A DNA stretch of 41,122 nucleotides from the NCBI GenBank assembly GCA_949287985.1, contig CASEIN010000039.1, positions 1-41,122 of the forward strand, given 5' to 3'. The DNA comes from Mucispirillum schaedleri (GTDB lineage: Bacteria > Chrysiogenota > Deferribacteres > Deferribacterales > Mucispirillaceae). The notes below the pieces were generated by a model. That model made no database searches, had not been told where the DNA came from, and worked only from the letters and a program-made list of their open reading frames with translations. How positions within the stretch are numbered: the stretch's first letter is position 1; each line of letters begins with the position of its first letter. Of this stretch, positions 2,978 through 9,620 are shown piece after piece. Made by a program: the position numbers and the translations under genes.

Positions 2978-3006
2978 TTTATACTTGCTTTTTAAGGAAA
3001 TAGCAA
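2978..3006 (-). promoter_or_regulatory. Promoter of the PHP-aroE operon
   Basis: On the minus strand, TTGCTA (3006-3001) is followed after exactly 17 bases by TATAAA (2983-2978). The predicted start is near 2971, about 35 bases before the PHP start codon. The whole element is overlapped by the inverted repeat CTTGCT (2984-2989) and AGCAAG (3002-3007), so a regulator bound there would block this promoter. Confidence 0.5.
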
Positions 3007-3048
3007 GAGAATTATTTAATATTAAAGAAAATATTTTAGGAAACTTGT

Positions 3049-3423
3049 ATGCAGGAAAATTTTGAAGTCAGAATTAGAGAGATTGCAAAACTAAAAAAAG
3101 GCTGGTCATTTGGTCAAGGTGAGCCTTTTAATGATGAACATGTGGAAATAGCAGCACTTTTAGCACTTAGATATTATAAAAAATATGCTATTACTGTTAG
3201 TGGAACGCCATCAGTTGATGGGTCAATTTATTTAACATTTAATATTAAAGATATTTTTCTTGATATTATTGTTCTTCCTCAAATTTCTGAAGCAACTGTT
3301 AAATATACACATGGTATTGGAAAAAATAAAATAGAAGAGTTATGGGGAACTGTTCCTTTAAATAAACTTGATAGTATTATGGAAAAATTTATAAGCCTTT
3401 CAAAAGAAGAAAATAATTCTTGA
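3049..3423 (+). CDS. Orphan 124-residue protein
   Basis: This is an isolated plus-strand gene with AGGAAA seven bases or so before its ATG and a hairpin right at its stop. The protein is soluble, without signal or membrane helix. Near the start it reads KKGWSFGQGEPFNDEHVE, followed by an alpha-helical stretch, then SVDGSIYLTFNI. That order (a GW..G.G.PF motif, helix, then a DGxIxLxF beta strand) resembles small uncharacterised proteins found in many accessory regions, some beside toxin-antitoxin genes; this resemblance is from memory and is not a family assignment. No partner toxin is visible nearby. The function is unknown. Confidence 0.75.
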   Translation: MQENFEVRIREIAKLKKGWSFGQGEPFNDEHVEIAALLALRYYKKYAITVSGTPSVDGSIYLTFNIKDIFLDIIVLPQISEATVKYTHGIGKNKIEELWGTVPLNKLDSIMEKFISLSKEENNS

Positions 3424-3449
3424 AAGGAATTATAAAAACCCCTTTCAAG
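3419..3449. terminator. Shared hairpin between convergent genes
   Basis: CTTGAAAGG at 3419-3427 pairs perfectly with CCTTTCAAG at 3441-3449 around a 13-base loop. The stop codon of the orphan gene lies in the left arm and the end of cimA is 9 bases beyond. Neither strand shows a strong T run after the stem (AATTATTTT on the minus strand is the better one), so it is probably a modest bidirectional terminator. Confidence 0.5.
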
Positions 3450-3457
3450 ACAATATC

Positions 3458-5041
3458 TTATTTACTATCTTTCGTTAATTTATAAATTATGGAATCCAGT
3501 AATGCCTGATAGCTGGCATCAATAATATTTTCAGCAACACCAACAGTGCTCCATGAAGAATTTTCATCTTTACTTAAGATTAAAACCCTTGTAGTAGCCA
3601 TAGTTCCATTATGTGATAATATACGAACTTTATAGTCAACTAATTCCATAGATTTAAGTGATGGATAAAAACGCACTAATGCTTTTCTAATAGCATTATC
3701 TAATGCATTTACAGGACCATTACCTGTTGCAGCAACATGTTCCATCTCACCTTTCACTGTTACTTTAACAGTAGCTTCTGCCATTGGTGCAACAGAAAGT
3801 GCTTTATTTTTTTCATCTATTACCCTGTAGCTAACAATATCAAAAAACTCTGGAGTTTTCTCGTCCATTGCATTTCTGATTAAAAGCTCAAAAGAAGCTT
3901 CTGCACCTTCATACTGAAAACCTCTGTTTTCAAGGTCTTTTAATTGATTTAATAAGGTTTGGACAGTTTCAGATTTACTGTCAATATCAAGCCCAAATTC
4001 TTGAGCTTTATATATAAGATTACTTTTGCCAGATAAATCTGATAATAACACACGCCTTGTATTACCAACTAATTCAGGCTCTATATGTTCATATGTTTTT
4101 GCATTTTTCAGTATGGCAGAAACATGCACCCCACCCTTATGAGCAAATGCAGAATTACCAACATATGGTCTATGTGTAAAATGCTTTAAGTTACCTATTT
4201 CATCTAAAAAGTATGATAAACTTTTTAATTTAGATAAATTTTCGCTGCTAATACAATTATACCCATATTTTAGCTGCAAGTTTGGTATAATAGAGCATAA
4301 ATTTGCATTACCACACCTTTCACCATAACCATTAATTGTTCCTTGAACATGGCTTGCCCCATTTCTAACTGCCATAACACTATTTGCAACAGCCATTTCA
4401 CAGTCATTATGAGTATGTATACCAAAAGGAAAATCGCCTAATGTATTTTTGACTACTTTTACAATTTCTGCAACTTCATCAGGCATTGCTCCACCATTGG
4501 TTTCACAAAGCACTACACAGTCAGCACCTGCATCTTTAGCAGCTAATAATGTTTTTAATGCATAATCAGGGTTTGCTTTATAACCATCAAAAAAATGCTC
4601 TGCATCATAAAATACCCTGTCCACTTTTTGTTTTAAATAACGTATAGTGTCTGAAATAATATCTATATTTTCATTAAGTGATATTTTTAATGCTTCTTTA
4701 ACATGCAAATCCCATGTTTTACCAAATATTGTAATATTTGGCACATTTGCTTCAAGTAATGCTTGTATTATTTCATCACTTTCACAAGTTTTTTTAGCAC
4801 GTCTTGTAGAACCAAATGCTGATATTTTATGTATATCGATATTTTTAACAGTCTGTATTTTAGTAAAAAATTCCATATCTCTTGGGTTTGACCCAGGCCA
4901 GCCACCTTCGATACAATCAATACCAAAATCTATTAATCTTTCTGCAATTCTTATTTTATCAATGACAGTAAAATTAACATCTTCAGACTGTGTTCCATCT
5001 CTTAAAGTTGTATCATATAAAAATATTTTTCTATTATCCAT
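3458..5041 (-). CDS. cimA: (R)-citramalate synthase
   Basis: CimA condenses pyruvate and acetyl-CoA to (R)-citramalate, the first step of threonine-independent isoleucine synthesis. The 527-residue protein has the HMGL-like barrel with [10 protein letters not shown] at residues 9-18, the [14 protein letters not shown] segment that is diagnostic of the CimA/TIGR00977 branch rather than Leu[16 protein letters not shown] with metal-binding histidines, and [14 protein letters not shown]-terminal LeuA-type regulatory domain starts near residue 390, so feedback control by isoleucine is likely. It overlaps the lysC end by 8 bases and closes the hom - apgM - lysC - cimA operon. Confidence 0.94.
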
Positions 5042-5522
5042 CTTGTTTCTCAGTTATAAATGCACTGTGAAGAACACGAACAGCAAGTTCTGTAAATTTT
5101 TCTTCAATAATACAAGAAACTTTGATTTCGCTTGTAGAAATCATTTTTATATTAATTTGGTTATCTGATAACACTTTAAACATTGTAGCAGCTACACCAG
5201 AATGACTTTTCATACCAATACCAACAATAGATACTTTTGAAATATTTTCATCAGATAAGATTTCTGTAACACCAGCTTCTTTACCTAAATGTTCACATGC
5301 TGCTTTTGCTCTAATAAGGTCAGTTTTAGGCACAGTAAATGATATATCTGTTTTGCCGTCTTCTTTTGCAACATTTTGTATAATCATATCCACATTAATA
5401 TTAGCTTCTGCTAATCCAATAAATATTTTTGCAGCTACTCCTGGCTCATCTTTAACACCTAAAAGTGTAATTTTAGCTTGATTTTTATCACTAGTAACGC
5501 CTGACACAACGATACGTTCCAT
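5034..5522 (-). CDS. Predicted internal beta subunit of aspartate kinase
   Basis: Inside lysC, an in-frame ATG at 5522 is preceded by AAGGAGG (5537-5531) with an 8-base gap, the strongest ribosome-binding site in the operon. Translation from it would give a separate 162-residue protein that contains only the two ACT domains. This is the arrangement known for the alpha2beta2 aspartokinases of Bacillus subtilis and Corynebacterium, where the beta subunit is made from the same gene by internal initiation. Here it is inferred from the sequence; no separate product has been shown. Confidence 0.6.
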
Positions 5523-6266
5523 ATTTTTTTCCTCCTTCGAAGTCACAAGTGTTCCTGGTTTATCTTCCATAGATGAAAGCACCATAATATCTACATTATA
5601 ATTCATTCCTAATTCTACACTTCTTGATTGAAGCACTTTTGCACCAAGAGATGCCAGTTCTAACATTTCTTCATGGGAAATTGTATCAAGTTTTTTTGCA
5701 TTTTTTACAATTCTTGGGTCTGCAGTGTATACACCATCAACATCTGTATATATTTCACATACATCAGCTTTTACAGCTGCAGCAATAGCTACTGCAGTGG
5801 TATCTGAACCACCTCTGCCTAAAGTTGTTGTATCACCCGTTTCTTTATTATAGCCTTGAAAACCTGCTACTACTACAATTTTACCTTCACTTAAGGCTTT
5901 CTTTATTCTTTCACCATTAATATTTAATATTCTAGCTTTAGAATGTGCATTATCTGTTTCCATACCAATCTGCAAACCTGTCATAGATATTGCATCATAG
6001 CCATCAACGAGTAATGCTTGTGTAACAAGCGGTATACAAGCAGTTTCACCAGTAGAAACAAGTTGATCATATTCTCTTAAAGAATAATCTGGCGTGATTT
6101 CTTTTAAAAGACCAATTAATCTATCTGTTTCACCAGACATAGCAGAAACTGCTACTATTACATCGTGGCCTTCGTCTTTTTTCTTTTCTACAATTTTCGC
6201 AACATTTCTAATGCGTTCTATACTGCCCACACTAGTGCCGCCAAATTTCATAACAACAAGACTCAC
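5034..6266 (-). CDS. lysC: Aspartate kinase with two ACT domains
   Basis: LysC phosphorylates aspartate, the entry step to lysine, threonine and methionine. The N-terminal kinase domain has KFGGTSVG at its start, STGE near residue 70, [11 protein letters not shown] near 153 and [13 protein letters not shown]. The C-terminal half holds paired ACT domains ([15 protein letters not shown] and [16 protein letters not shown]), the usual site of feedback by lysine or threonine. I start it at the GTG at 6266, because GGAGGA sits 5 bases upstream and the protein then begins [10 protein letters not shown]; an upstream in-frame TTG at 6278 has no such support. It is 410 residues. An internal start for a beta subunit is predicted. 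Confidence 0.94.
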
Positions 6267-6295
6267 ATATTCCTCCAAATTTTATATAATTATTA

Positions 6296-7453
6296 TTAAT
6301 TATTTATAAATAAATCTGCAATTTTATAGCCATCTTTTAAGTCAAAAGATGGTTTTAGATGCTCACTATAAGTGTTGTTTTCATCTGCTTTAATATTACT
6401 GCCATATATAATAGCAGGAATTTTTTCTATTGAATGAGTTTTTAATTCAATTGGGGTTGCATGGTCTGGTGTAAGTAATATTTTATAATCACCAAACTGT
6501 TTCATTCCATCTAATATAATTGGCATCATTTCTTTATCAATTAATTCTACTGCCTTAATTTTTTCTTCAATGCTTCCAAGATGCCCTGCTTCATCTGGTG
6601 CTTCCACATGTATAAAAACATAATCATGGTCTTTTAAAGCATTTATGCCATACTCTGCTTTACCTTTAAAATTAGTATCATTAAACCCTGTAATATTTGG
6701 AACTTTAATAATATCCATACCAGCACATACACCAATACCTCTTATTAAATCAACAGCAGAAATAACAGCCCCTTTTAATTTATATTCATCAATAAAAGCA
6801 GGCAGTGCTGGTTTCCTACCCTGCCCCCATAACCAAATATTTGTAGCTTTTCCAGTATCTATGCTGCCATTAAATACTTCTTTTGAAGCCTTTTCCATAA
6901 TTTTTATAAGTTTTTCACTTCCTTTACCTTTTGGTATATGGGAAGTAGTATCTTTATCACTTATATCATGTGGTGGAGTTGTTTCCACTTCCATATCAGC
7001 ATTACGAATAACCATTAAATTACGGTATCCAACACCTTTATAAAACTCTATACCTTCACCACTGAAAACATCATTTAATTTATTAATAATATTGGATACA
7101 TATTTTTCTTCAATATGATGTGCAGTAAAACTTTCCATAATTTTATCTTTAATGGTAACAGTGTTACATCTAAAAGCCATATCATTAGCAGATAATTCAA
7201 TACCCATACTACATGCTTCAAGTGGGCTTCTACCTGTATAATATTCTTTTGGATTATATCCAAAAATACTTAAATTACAAATATCACTGCCTGGAGCCAT
7301 TCCATCTGGAGTAGTTTGTATGTATCCACACATACCATGAGCAGCCATATAGTTAATATTGGGTATGTGTGCATGTTCTATTATTGTTTTACCATTAAGC
7401 TCTTTTATTGGTCTATCTGCAAGACCATCACATAATAAAACTAAATATTTCAT
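6296..7453 (-). CDS. ApgM-family phosphomutase, probable homoserine kinase
   Basis: A 385-residue alkaline-phosphatase-superfamily protein of the archaeal-type cofactor-independent phosphoglycerate mutase family. Metal and nucleophile motifs are present: LCDGLADRP at residues 7-15, APGSDICNLSIFGY near 53-66 with the active-site serine, HVEAPDEAGH near 281 and LLTPDHATPIELKTHS near 330. Bacterial members of this branch (TIGR02535 type) are predicted homoserine kinases because of gene context. Here it lies one base after hom and just before lysC, exactly where a kinase making phosphohomoserine would be expected, and no GHMP-type thrB is present. A glycolytic mutase role cannot be excluded. Confidence 0.8.
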   Translation of the reverse strand: MKYLVLLCDGLADRPIKELNGKTIIEHAHIPNINYMAAHGMCGYIQTTPDGMAPGSDICNLSIFGYNPKEYYTGRSPLEACSMGIELSANDMAFRCNTVTIKDKIMESFTAHHIEEKYVSNIINKLNDVFSGEGIEFYKGVGYRNLMVIRNADMEVETTPPHDISDKDTTSHIPKGKGSEKLIKIMEKASKEVFNGSIDTGKATNIWLWGQGRKPALPAFIDEYKLKGAVISAVDLIRGIGVCAGMDIIKVPNITGFNDTNFKGKAEYGINALKDHDYVFIHVEAPDEAGHLGSIEEKIKAVELIDKEMMPIILDGMKQFGDYKILLTPDHATPIELKTHSIEKIPAIIYGSNIKADENNTYSEHLKPSFDLKDGYKIADLFINN

Positions 7454-7454
7454 A

Positions 7455-8768
7455 TTAATTACCTTCTACCCTAATTATTACAGTTTTTTCTTTAATAAAT
7501 GGTTTTGAATCAATTTCTTTAACTGCATTTATTATCTGACTACCTATAACTTCATGTGTCATAAATACTAATGGAACACAACCACTGCATTCAATAGATG
7601 ATTCCCTTTGTAATGCTGAAGATACACTTATTCCATTATTTGCTAAAATAAGACCAACTTGGGCAAGAACGCCGGGAGTATCTTCCACCATTAAACGCAT
7701 ATAAAATGATGAATGAATATCTTTTATATCTATAACATTAATATTTTCTTCCTGTTCAACATAACCTAATACTGGTACACGAACATTAATATTTGATGCA
7801 ATATTTCTTGCAATATTTATAATATCACCAGCAACAGCTGCTCCTGTTGGAGTGCTTCCTGCCCCTTGACCATAATGGAGTGTTGGGCCAGTTTTATCTG
7901 ATTTTAAGTAAACTGCATTAAATACACCATTAACTTGTGCCAAAGTATTAGTAACAGGTATCATTGTTGGGTGCACTCTCACTTCAATATCATTACCATG
8001 CCTTTTTGCAATAGCTAAAAGTTTTATAACACAGCCAAATTCTTTTGCTATAGCAATATCTATTGGTTTAATATTAGATATACCTTCTACAAATACTTTA
8101 TCCATTTCCACGAGTGTAGAAAAAGCAATAGAAGATAAAATAGAAAGTTTATGTGCCGAATCAATTCCTTCTATATCAAATGTTGGGTCTGCTTCAGCAT
8201 AACCCTGTTTTTGTGCATCTTTTAATACTTCTGCAAACTCTTTACCTTCTTCTGTCATTTTTGTAAGAATATAGTTAGCAGTTCCGTTAATAATACTATA
8301 TATTTCTTGAATATTATTAACTGCTAAATCTTCTTTCATAACTCTTATAATAGGTATGCCACCACCAACAGATGCTTCAAAACCTATATCCACACCCATT
8401 TTTTTAGCCAGTGGAAATATTTCTTTACCATAAGTTGCAAGTAATGCTTTATTTGCTGTAACAACATGTTTTTTATTTTCTAAAGCTTTTATAACAAAAT
8501 CTTTAGCAAATGTATATCCACCTACAAGCTCAACAATTATATGTATATCATTATTATTAATTAATTCCATTGCATCTTTCGTAATAATTTCTATTTTTGA
8601 TAAATATTCATCATGTTTTTTATCAATAGAAATATCTGCAACGCCTTTAACAATAATATCTATACCTGTTTTTCTTTTAACTGACTGAAAATTATCTATT
8701 AAAGCGGCAACAGTTCCTTTACCAACCACTCCGTAGCCAATTATACCTACATTTACCACTTTATTCAT
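7455..8768 (-). CDS. hom: Homoserine dehydrogenase
   Basis: Hom reduces aspartate semialdehyde to homoserine. The 437-residue protein has the Rossmann loop GYGVVGKGT at residues 10-18, VVTANKALLA, the catalytic region with GFEASVGGGIPI and INGTANYILTKM, and GYAEADPTFDIEGIDSAHK. A C-terminal ACT domain begins near residue 350 (VEDTPGVLAQVGLILANNGI), implying feedback control, usually by threonine. It is the first gene of the operon; AGGAGTT precedes the ATG and a strong promoter lies 40-65 bases upstream. The next gene starts after a one-base gap. Confidence 0.96.
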   Translation of the reverse strand: MNKVVNVGIIGYGVVGKGTVAALIDNFQSVKRKTGIDIIVKGVADISIDKKHDEYLSKIEIITKDAMELINNNDIHIIVELVGGYTFAKDFVIKALENKKHVVTANKALLATYGKEIFPLAKKMGVDIGFEASVGGGIPIIRVMKEDLAVNNIQEIYSIINGTANYILTKMTEEGKEFAEVLKDAQKQGYAEADPTFDIEGIDSAHKLSILSSIAFSTLVEMDKVFVEGISNIKPIDIAIAKEFGCVIKLLAIAKRHGNDIEVRVHPTMIPVTNTLAQVNGVFNAVYLKSDKTGPTLHYGQGAGSTPTGAAVAGDIINIARNIASNINVRVPVLGYVEQEENINVIDIKDIHSSFYMRLMVEDTPGVLAQVGLILANNGISVSSALQRESSIECSGCVPLVFMTHEVIGSQIINAVKEIDSKPFIKEKTVIIRVEGN

Positions 8769-8803
8769 ATGAACTCCTAATATATTTATATTTTTAATCT
8801 GTT

Positions 8804-8832
8804 ATGATATATATTTTATTTTTTATAGTCAA
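8804..8832 (-). promoter_or_regulatory. Promoter of the hom-cimA operon
   Basis: On the minus strand TTGACT (8832-8827) and TATCAT (8809-8804) are spaced by exactly 17 bases. The predicted start is near 8797, giving a leader of about 29 bases. That is too short for a leader-peptide attenuator or riboswitch, so amino-acid control of this operon probably acts through a protein regulator or on the enzymes. Confidence 0.55.
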
Positions 8833-8889
8833 TAATTTTAATAAAAAAATATATATTATTAGCTAATTTTTAAAAAAATTTAAAACCAA

Positions 8890-8918
8890 TTGATTATTTT
8901 ATAAGAATAAGTTAATAT
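8890..8918 (+). promoter_or_regulatory. Promoter of the carbonic anhydrase gene
   Basis: TTGATT at 8890-8895 and TAATAT at 8913-8918 with a 17-base spacer lie 24 bases before the start codon. The same hexamers with the same spacing occur before tex, which supports this as the housekeeping promoter form of the organism. Confidence 0.5.
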
Positions 8919-8942
8919 ACCTTACTAAAGGAGCTATATATT

Positions 8943-9620
8943 ATGCTAAAAATATTAAAAGCTATAAGAGATTTTTTTAAAGGATATGAAATAGAAGTTA
9001 AATCGACAATTGATAGATTAAAAGAAGGCAATAGATATTTTACTTCATATATACTGCATGCTGCTCCAGTAAGTAATATTGTAAAAGTAAGAGAGATGGC
9101 AATACATGGTCAAGATCCTCATGCAGTTATTGTGACATGTTCAGATGCTAGAATTTCTCCAGAGAGAATATTTAATGCAGAAATGGGTGATTTTTTTATT
9201 ATTAGAACAGCCGGTCATGTTGTTGGACCATATGAAATGGGTAGTATAGAGTATGCAGTAACACACAGCGATGTTGATATTGTAATTGTTATGGGACATG
9301 AAAATTGTGGAGCAGTTAAAAGCTGTATTGAAGACCATGAAGGAACAGACCTGGGTTATATCCATGATATTTTAGAAGAAGTGCAGCCATCAATTGATAG
9401 AGCTAAGCAGGAAACAAATAATAAATATGATTTATTAGAAAGAGCAGAAGAGTTAAATGTATATCACACTGTTGCAAAAATAAAACAAAGCAGTATTTTA
9501 CAGCCTTATATTAATTCTGGAAAATTAATTGTTATTGGTGCAAAATATGGTATAGCAACGGGAAAAGTAACATTTTTTGATGATACTATTACATGCCCTG
9601 TAATATATAATAAAAAGTAG
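8943..9620 (+). CDS. Beta-class carbonic anhydrase
   Basis: The enzyme interconverts CO2 and bicarbonate. In the 225-residue protein the zinc ligands and the catalytic pair are in place: Cys66, Asp68 and Arg70 in VTCSDAR, and His119 and Cys122 in GHENCGAVK. The GSIEYAV segment between them is typical. The length and the absence of a signal peptide fit a cytoplasmic enzyme. AAGGAGC lies eight or so bases before the ATG. It is transcribed alone and ends one base from the convergent mutS2 gene. Likely roles are bicarbonate supply for carboxylations and pH control. Confidence 0.95.
   Translation: MLKILKAIRDFFKGYEIEVKSTIDRLKEGNRYFTSYILHAAPVSNIVKVREMAIHGQDPHAVIVTCSDARISPERIFNAEMGDFFIIRTAGHVVGPYEMGSIEYAVTHSDVDIVIVMGHENCGAVKSCIEDHEGTDLGYIHDILEEVQPSIDRAKQETNNKYDLLERAEELNVYHTVAKIKQSSILQPYINSGKLIVIGAKYGIATGKVTFFDDTITCPVIYNKK

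Follow-up and report, generated by a model that had tools for sequence, protein, structure and literature searches.

An ApgM-family protein encoded between hom and lysC in Mucispirillum as a proposed homoserine phosphotransferase (ThrB2)

In many prokaryotes capable of threonine synthesis, no homoserine kinase has been recognised. A locus of the gut bacterium Mucispirillum raises the question of whether a protein resembling a phosphoglycerate mutase may fill this step. The locus lies in the window, by which we mean the whole stretch of DNA analysed (41,122 nucleotides, in contig C39), and belongs to a genome of 2.44 Mb in 79 contigs with a completeness of 97.15%. A preliminary description had read the gene order as hom, ApgM-like gene, lysC and cimA, with one base between the first two. 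ORF calls and profile matches bear out both points: on the minus strand hom (8768-7455) is followed by the ApgM-like gene (7453-6296), lysC and cimA, and a single base (7454) separates hom from the ApgM-like gene. The features are as follows.

7455..8768, minus strand: hom, homoserine dehydrogenase with ACT domain, operon gene 1 (NF004976, 495 bits; PF00742, PF03447, PF01842)
6296..7453, minus strand: ApgM-family protein, proposed homoserine phosphotransferase, ThrB2 (TIGR02535, 453.9 bits against a cut-off of 446.3; PF10143, PF01676; tree; residue signature; AlphaFold model)
5034..6266, minus strand: lysC, monofunctional aspartate kinase (NF005155, 584.7 bits; TIGR00656, 431.1 bits; GGAGG at 6276-6272)
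3458..5041, minus strand: cimA, citramalate synthase (TIGR00977, 775 bits)
3418..3450, minus strand: terminator-like hairpin just 3' of cimA (terminator scan; weak by itself)

The hom product has 437 amino acids, with AGGAG preceding the ATG of its gene, and the ApgM-like protein has 385. The longest lysC ORF (5034-6278) opens with TTG at 6278; inspection by eye found an alternative GTG at 6266, which is the likelier start since GGAGG is better placed for it, 5 bases ahead, and which leaves a gap of 29 bases after the stop of the ApgM-like gene. The genes lysC and cimA overlap by 8 bases. Because the four genes are flanked by a divergent carbonic anhydrase gene beginning at 8943 and a convergent ORF ending at 3423, they look like one transcription unit. 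The terminator scan of the region found one hairpin against 2.1 expected in shuffles, and this hairpin is well placed after cimA. The promoter scan found 30 candidates against 35.6 in shuffles, which is no excess over shuffled sequence, and within 3000-9500 no Rfam family matched above gathering score, so that a threonine leader or riboswitch was rejected. The presence of cimA in the operon suggests that isoleucine is made from pyruvate via citramalate rather than from threonine.

The arrangement is conserved. We compared the loci of the 30 best among 46 TIGR02535 matches in the phylum (near-full-length or partial). The ApgM-like gene is directly preceded by hom in 27 and by hom-thrC in three; lysC lies downstream in 29 of the same best 30, and in the remaining locus the contig ends. 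All 17 Deferribacterota loci among 80 named loci have hom nearby, and the closest named homologue of the window protein (96% identical) comes from an uncultured Mucispirillum (L046). In one Deferribacterales locus (L060:7001-8149) the interval from the ApgM gene to cimA contains no match to lysC. The 63 loci outside the phylum were sorted by hand, from record titles, into bacterial and archaeal; hom, thrC or lysC was found on the same strand within 1.6 kb in 25 of the 40 bacterial loci and, by this criterion, near none of the 23 archaeal ThrB2 genes, which counts against the ThrB2 reading. In three archaeal loci examined (L194:2631-3362, L202:3058-3819 and L087:9232-10071) cofE (F420-0:L-glutamate ligase) is found near ThrB2, and this proximity may hint at a different ThrB2 function in archaea.

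The other genes of the pathway were searched for in the genome and in the phylum. The preliminary description had held that the assignment would become strong if the genome lacked a GHMP-type thrB and had a separate glycolytic mutase, and this is what the searches found. The best match to TIGR00191 (GHMP thrB) in the window's genome reaches 26 bits (cut-off 168) and comes from IspE, the only GHMP kinase that a PF00288 search detects there. A separate GpmI is encoded at G000:C1:134605-136107 (658.8 bits), and the gene for threonine synthase (thrC), for which the preliminary description had proposed a search, is present on contig C62, apart from the operon. APH-type thrB is above cut-off in 0/50 phylum genomes, the window's own included; on these profile searches we reject the idea that a thrB of the GHMP or APH type lies in another part of the window's genome. 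None of the 50 genomes has TIGR00191 over cut-off either; weak matches occur in 40/50, and their identity (IspE) was established for the one in the window's genome. TIGR02535 is above cut-off in 43/50 genomes and just under it or partial in three further (G019, G049, G032), and no match was found in G035, G045, G004 and G005. The thrC gene was found in 47/50 (all except G004, G005 and G031) and gpmI in 50/50. Two genomes of 1.3 Mb from the same class, G004 and G005, are missing thrC, thrB and TIGR02535 and keep gpmI; thus thrC and the ApgM-like gene are missing together while gpmI remains. The genome G035 (96% complete) has thrC and no TIGR02535 match, which counts against the ThrB2 reading. 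Three other genomes of the genus of G035 have TIGR02535, and the case may be an assembly gap or a real loss.

Profile scores give the protein two names. The cut-off of TIGR02535, 'proposed homoserine kinase', is passed narrowly, by 7.6 bits, whereas the protein reaches 494.2 bits (cut-off 426) with the equivalog NF003242, 'cofactor-independent phosphoglycerate mutase', and 459 bits (cut-off 320) with TIGR00306. The only Pfam domains matched are PF10143 and PF01676, and there is no GHMP kinase domain. A change of reaction has a precedent among ApgM homologues in PhpG, a phosphonoformyl transferase (NF038358) to which NCBIfam assigns a non-mutase transfer; the window protein reaches 180 bits with this profile, far under the cut-off of 545, and the substrates differ. 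The AlphaFold2 model of the window protein (29 sequences) has a pLDDT of 94 and a pTM of 0.90. Its nearest PDB structure is 2zkt, the archaeal mutase PH0037 (Z 44.4, rmsd 2.1, 356 residues aligned), followed by 3kd8 and 3idd of T. acidophilum and then by GpmI, phosphopentomutase and alkaline phosphatases. The archaeal mutases have in common with the window protein the whole-length fold, the Ser nucleophile and the metal ligands at about 30% identity. The fold that the model shares with mutases says nothing firm on the function of the window protein.

The residue alignment comprised 189 sequences: 37 mutases, 142 ThrB2 proteins (ten thrB-adjacent ones included), seven of a basal sister group and three CobD-adjacent. 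Thinning at 75% identity left 104 rows for the tree. The mutase group was fixed by hand, from locus numbers, before residues were counted, and it later proved to be one side of a tree branch, together with two CobD-adjacent rows. This branch (SH-aLRT 99) splits 25 mutase-side rows, including 2zkt, 3kd8 and the two CobD-adjacent ones, from 79 ThrB2 rows. The preliminary description had proposed a tree of TIGR02535 versus TIGR00306; in ours the window protein groups with the TIGR02535 sequences, apart from the archaeal mutases, within a Deferribacterales clade of 15 (support 100). The window protein keeps the nucleophilic Ser and the two-metal site (D9, S56, D287, H291, D330, H331 and H340); in ThrB2 as a whole S56 is found in 141/142 and the six metal-site residues in 142/142. 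Eight changes from mutase to ThrB2 are fixed or nearly so: H60N, G82S, R113H, H143Y, D160P, L207W, R209W and K284E. ThrB2 mostly has Phe or Tyr at position 109 and Ser or Thr at position 110, where Arg is found in 37/37 mutases. In the window protein R109, R110, R113, R209 and K284, each in 37/37 mutases, are replaced by F, T, H, W and E. Three codons can be located in the window.

7286..7288, minus strand: codon of Ser56, predicted phosphorylated nucleophile, GSDICN motif (S in 37/37 mutases and 141/142 ThrB2)
6827..6829, minus strand: codon of Trp209 (R in 37/37 mutases, W in 142/142 ThrB2)
6602..6604, minus strand: codon of Glu284 (K in 37/37 mutases, E in 142/142 ThrB2)

The loss of basic residues and the charge reversal K284E would fit the replacement of a doubly acidic substrate by an amino acid. 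Arg209 of ApgM presumably corresponds to the substrate arginines of GpmI, and from motif likeness to GpmI we infer that the changed residues contact the substrate; the profile alignment between GpmI and the ApgM groups was confined to the C-terminal part with the metal site. The only stretch of the AlphaFold model under a pLDDT of 50, residues 110-112, is inside the changed loop. Homology to iPGM predicts Ser56 as the phosphorylated nucleophile; one paper (PMC5382265) gives the metal ligands and the phosphoserine route for iPGM, and the literature search found no paper on its substrate residues.

The window gene is probably the homoserine O-phosphorylating enzyme of the cell (ThrB2) and not a glycolytic mutase, because GHMP and APH-type thrB are missing, thrC and gpmI are present, the operon is conserved, the protein falls in its own clade, the nucleophile and metal ligands are intact and the mutase arginines are replaced. 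The view of the preliminary description that the locus serves threonine synthesis and not glycolysis is supported by the missing thrB, the presence of thrC and GpmI, the conserved operon and the separate clade. In the proposed mechanism Ser56 would take a phosphoryl group from a donor and form phosphoserine, as in phosphoglycerate mutase. Homoserine would then accept the group on its hydroxyl while bound in a pocket reshaped by Trp207, Trp209, His113, Tyr143 and Glu284, of which Glu284 may hold the alpha-amino group, and the product, O-phosphohomoserine, would go to threonine synthase. By the chemistry of the family, PEP or a phosphoglycerate would be a likelier donor than ATP; PEP is the example of the TIGRFAM curators as reported with GapMind (PMC7311316).

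Reports also exist on this family in other organisms. The preliminary description had stated that the branch was predicted earlier to be a non-orthologous homoserine kinase, and this is right: TIGR02535 is called 'proposed homoserine kinase' in NCBIfam, and the prediction is in print. A gut-genome reconstruction has named the family ThrB2 and described the occurrence of ThrB and ThrB2 as complementary (PMC9026213). In the GapMind paper, mutants of BT2402 of Bacteroides thetaiotaomicron are reported to need threonine for growth, but a personal communication given there speaks against the ThrB2 reading: an E. coli thrB mutant was not complemented by BT2402 (PMC7311316). The window protein shares with BT2402, as described, a TIGR02535 score above cut-off, pairing with threonine genes, a missing thrB and the presence of thrC. 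The operons differ: in Bacteroidetes thrB2 is reported with thrC and asd-hom (PMC9026213), whereas the window has hom-thrB2-lysC-cimA with thrC elsewhere. In the literature searched, mostly non-subscription papers, we found no purified-enzyme proof for any TIGR02535 member and no earlier report on ThrB2 in this lineage. The ThrB2 prediction is thus not new; new here are the residue signature, the comparison across 196 archaeal genomes and the CobD-adjacent paralogues with W209 and E284.

The association of TIGR02535 with a missing thrB extends beyond the phylum. TIGR00191 is over cut-off in 0/50 ThrB2-carrying genomes from outside the phylum, these being 50 of the 63 available; 13 loci were left out (L068, L070, L075, L089, L093, L095, L097, L102, L107, L110, L111, L115 and L125). 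The archaeal test set was drawn from the phylum to which Methanolobus vulcani belongs (196 genomes), with the 2x2 counts tallied by eye. TIGR02535 is over cut-off in 145, TIGR00191 in 45 and thrC in 189; 135 genomes have TIGR02535 only, 35 thrB only, 10 both and 16 neither. The two genes avoid each other with an odds ratio of 0.034 (Fisher p 1.2e-17), a p-value that overstates the case because kinship is uncorrected. The 16 genomes with neither gene include three with full-length TIGR02535 matches just below cut-off (G168, G258 and G277), three without a thrC match (G139, G207 and G272) and six with a CobD-adjacent ApgM paralogue. Four (G116, G170, G182 and G245) have thrC and none of the candidate kinases, and they count against the ThrB2 reading.

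In all ten archaeal genomes that hold both genes, thrB and ThrB2 are adjacent (L188-L197); nine genomes have the order ThrB2-thrB and one (G248) has the reverse. GHMP ThrB has the same predicted product as ThrB2, with an unrelated fold and ATP chemistry, and in archaea too the side-by-side placement ties ThrB2 to the phosphorylation of homoserine. The ten thrB-adjacent ThrB2 proteins fall in three places of the 104-row tree and keep the catalytic residues (10/10), five of them ending about 30 residues early at the C-terminus, and every one of these genomes carries at least one further ApgM protein. Such side-by-side pairs, both members looking intact, are not predicted by plain displacement and need explanation: the two may be redundant while one replaces the other, use different donors or have different roles. 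The pairs, in their two opposite orders, also lend something to a rival view, in which the window protein is an accessory or regulatory protein or partner of the threonine branch and an unrecognised kinase phosphorylates homoserine. The failed complementation by BT2402 would agree with that view, and a suitable kinase is known in Desulfovibrio, where a shikimate-kinase-like homoserine kinase (DvMF_0971 type) is reported to have rescued an E. coli thrB mutant (PMC5764234). It would however require an unseen kinase in all ThrB2-only lineages, the ThrB2 protein has the full set of catalytic residues, and BT2402 itself is needed for threonine synthesis; we consider an accessory role improbable.

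A further reading makes the protein a broad hydroxy-amino-acid phosphotransferase acting on homoserine and threonine. Each of six archaeal genomes (G100, G110, G120, G130, G146 and G153) has a divergent extra ApgM paralogue adjoining a CobD-like gene (loci L248-L253; for example L248:5683-6924 and 6942-8042), and all six have thrC and lack thrB and TIGR02535. TIGR01140 (CobD) is the best NCBIfam match of the neighbour gene in 6/6, over cut-off in L253 only (293.1 against 290.55 bits), at 267-276 bits in four loci and at 194 in L252, where the ORF is shorter (313 aa). The paralogues have W209 and E284 as in ThrB2 and retain H60, R110 and R113 (6/6). CobD requires threonine phosphate. This requirement is one of two reasons for which W209 and E284, as read from the alignment, may mark amino-acid acceptors. 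The other is a proposal in print, that the TIGR02535-like Dehre_1608 of a Dehalobacter corrinoid operon is an L-threonine kinase, cbiU (PMC4285132). The CobD-adjacent paralogues may likewise be candidate threonine kinases for B12. CbiU, as described, resembles the window protein in its ApgM family, its similarity to TIGR02535 and its proposed action on a hydroxy amino acid (PMC4285132), and both CbiU and the W209/E284 paralogues speak for broad specificity. However, CbiU sits in a corrinoid operon, whereas the neighbours of the window gene are hom, lysC, cimA, carbonic anhydrase and mutS2, with no corrinoid gene adjoining, and the CobD-adjacent group, unlike ThrB2, retains His60, Arg110 and Arg113; a double substrate range for the window protein is very unlikely.

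That the gene encodes a phosphoglycerate mutase merely located in the operon, as the NF003242 name implies and as the NF003242 and TIGR00306 scores and the nearest solved structures would favour, is equally hard to credit and was rejected, since a separate GpmI is present in this genome, so that the protein is not the only phosphoglycerate mutase of the cell, and in every phylum genome, all five basic residues of the mutases are replaced, the protein lies on the opposite side of the supported branch, and G004 and G005 lack the gene along with thrC and keep gpmI. The NF003242 name, which outscores TIGR02535, is likely a misannotation throughout the TIGR02535 family.

Beyond the assignment of the window gene as ThrB2, a wider scheme can be put forward as a speculation that we think doubtful as a whole. 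A class of phosphotransferases that work through phosphoserine, need no ATP and act on hydroxy amino acids may have arisen from a mutase on the ApgM fold, with Trp209 and Glu284 as its mark where mutases have Arg and Lys. The ThrB2 branch, with the window gene, would make O-phosphohomoserine and the CobD-adjacent branch threonine phosphate for vitamin B12. The donor would be a glycolytic phosphate compound, so that amino-acid synthesis would be tied to lower glycolysis, and archaea with both ThrB and ThrB2 would use different donors.

Automatic annotation by NF003242 can score an organism as a threonine auxotroph and add a false second mutase to it. If confirmed, ThrB2 would fill the missing step of the threonine pathway in Mucispirillum, in nearly all sampled Deferribacterota and throughout most of one archaeal phylum. 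It would also extend the homoserine kinases by one whose fold and chemistry are unrelated. With the residue signature, which reaches down to single sites, and with the archaeal genomes that carry both genes side by side, the homoserine-kinase question becomes more testable.
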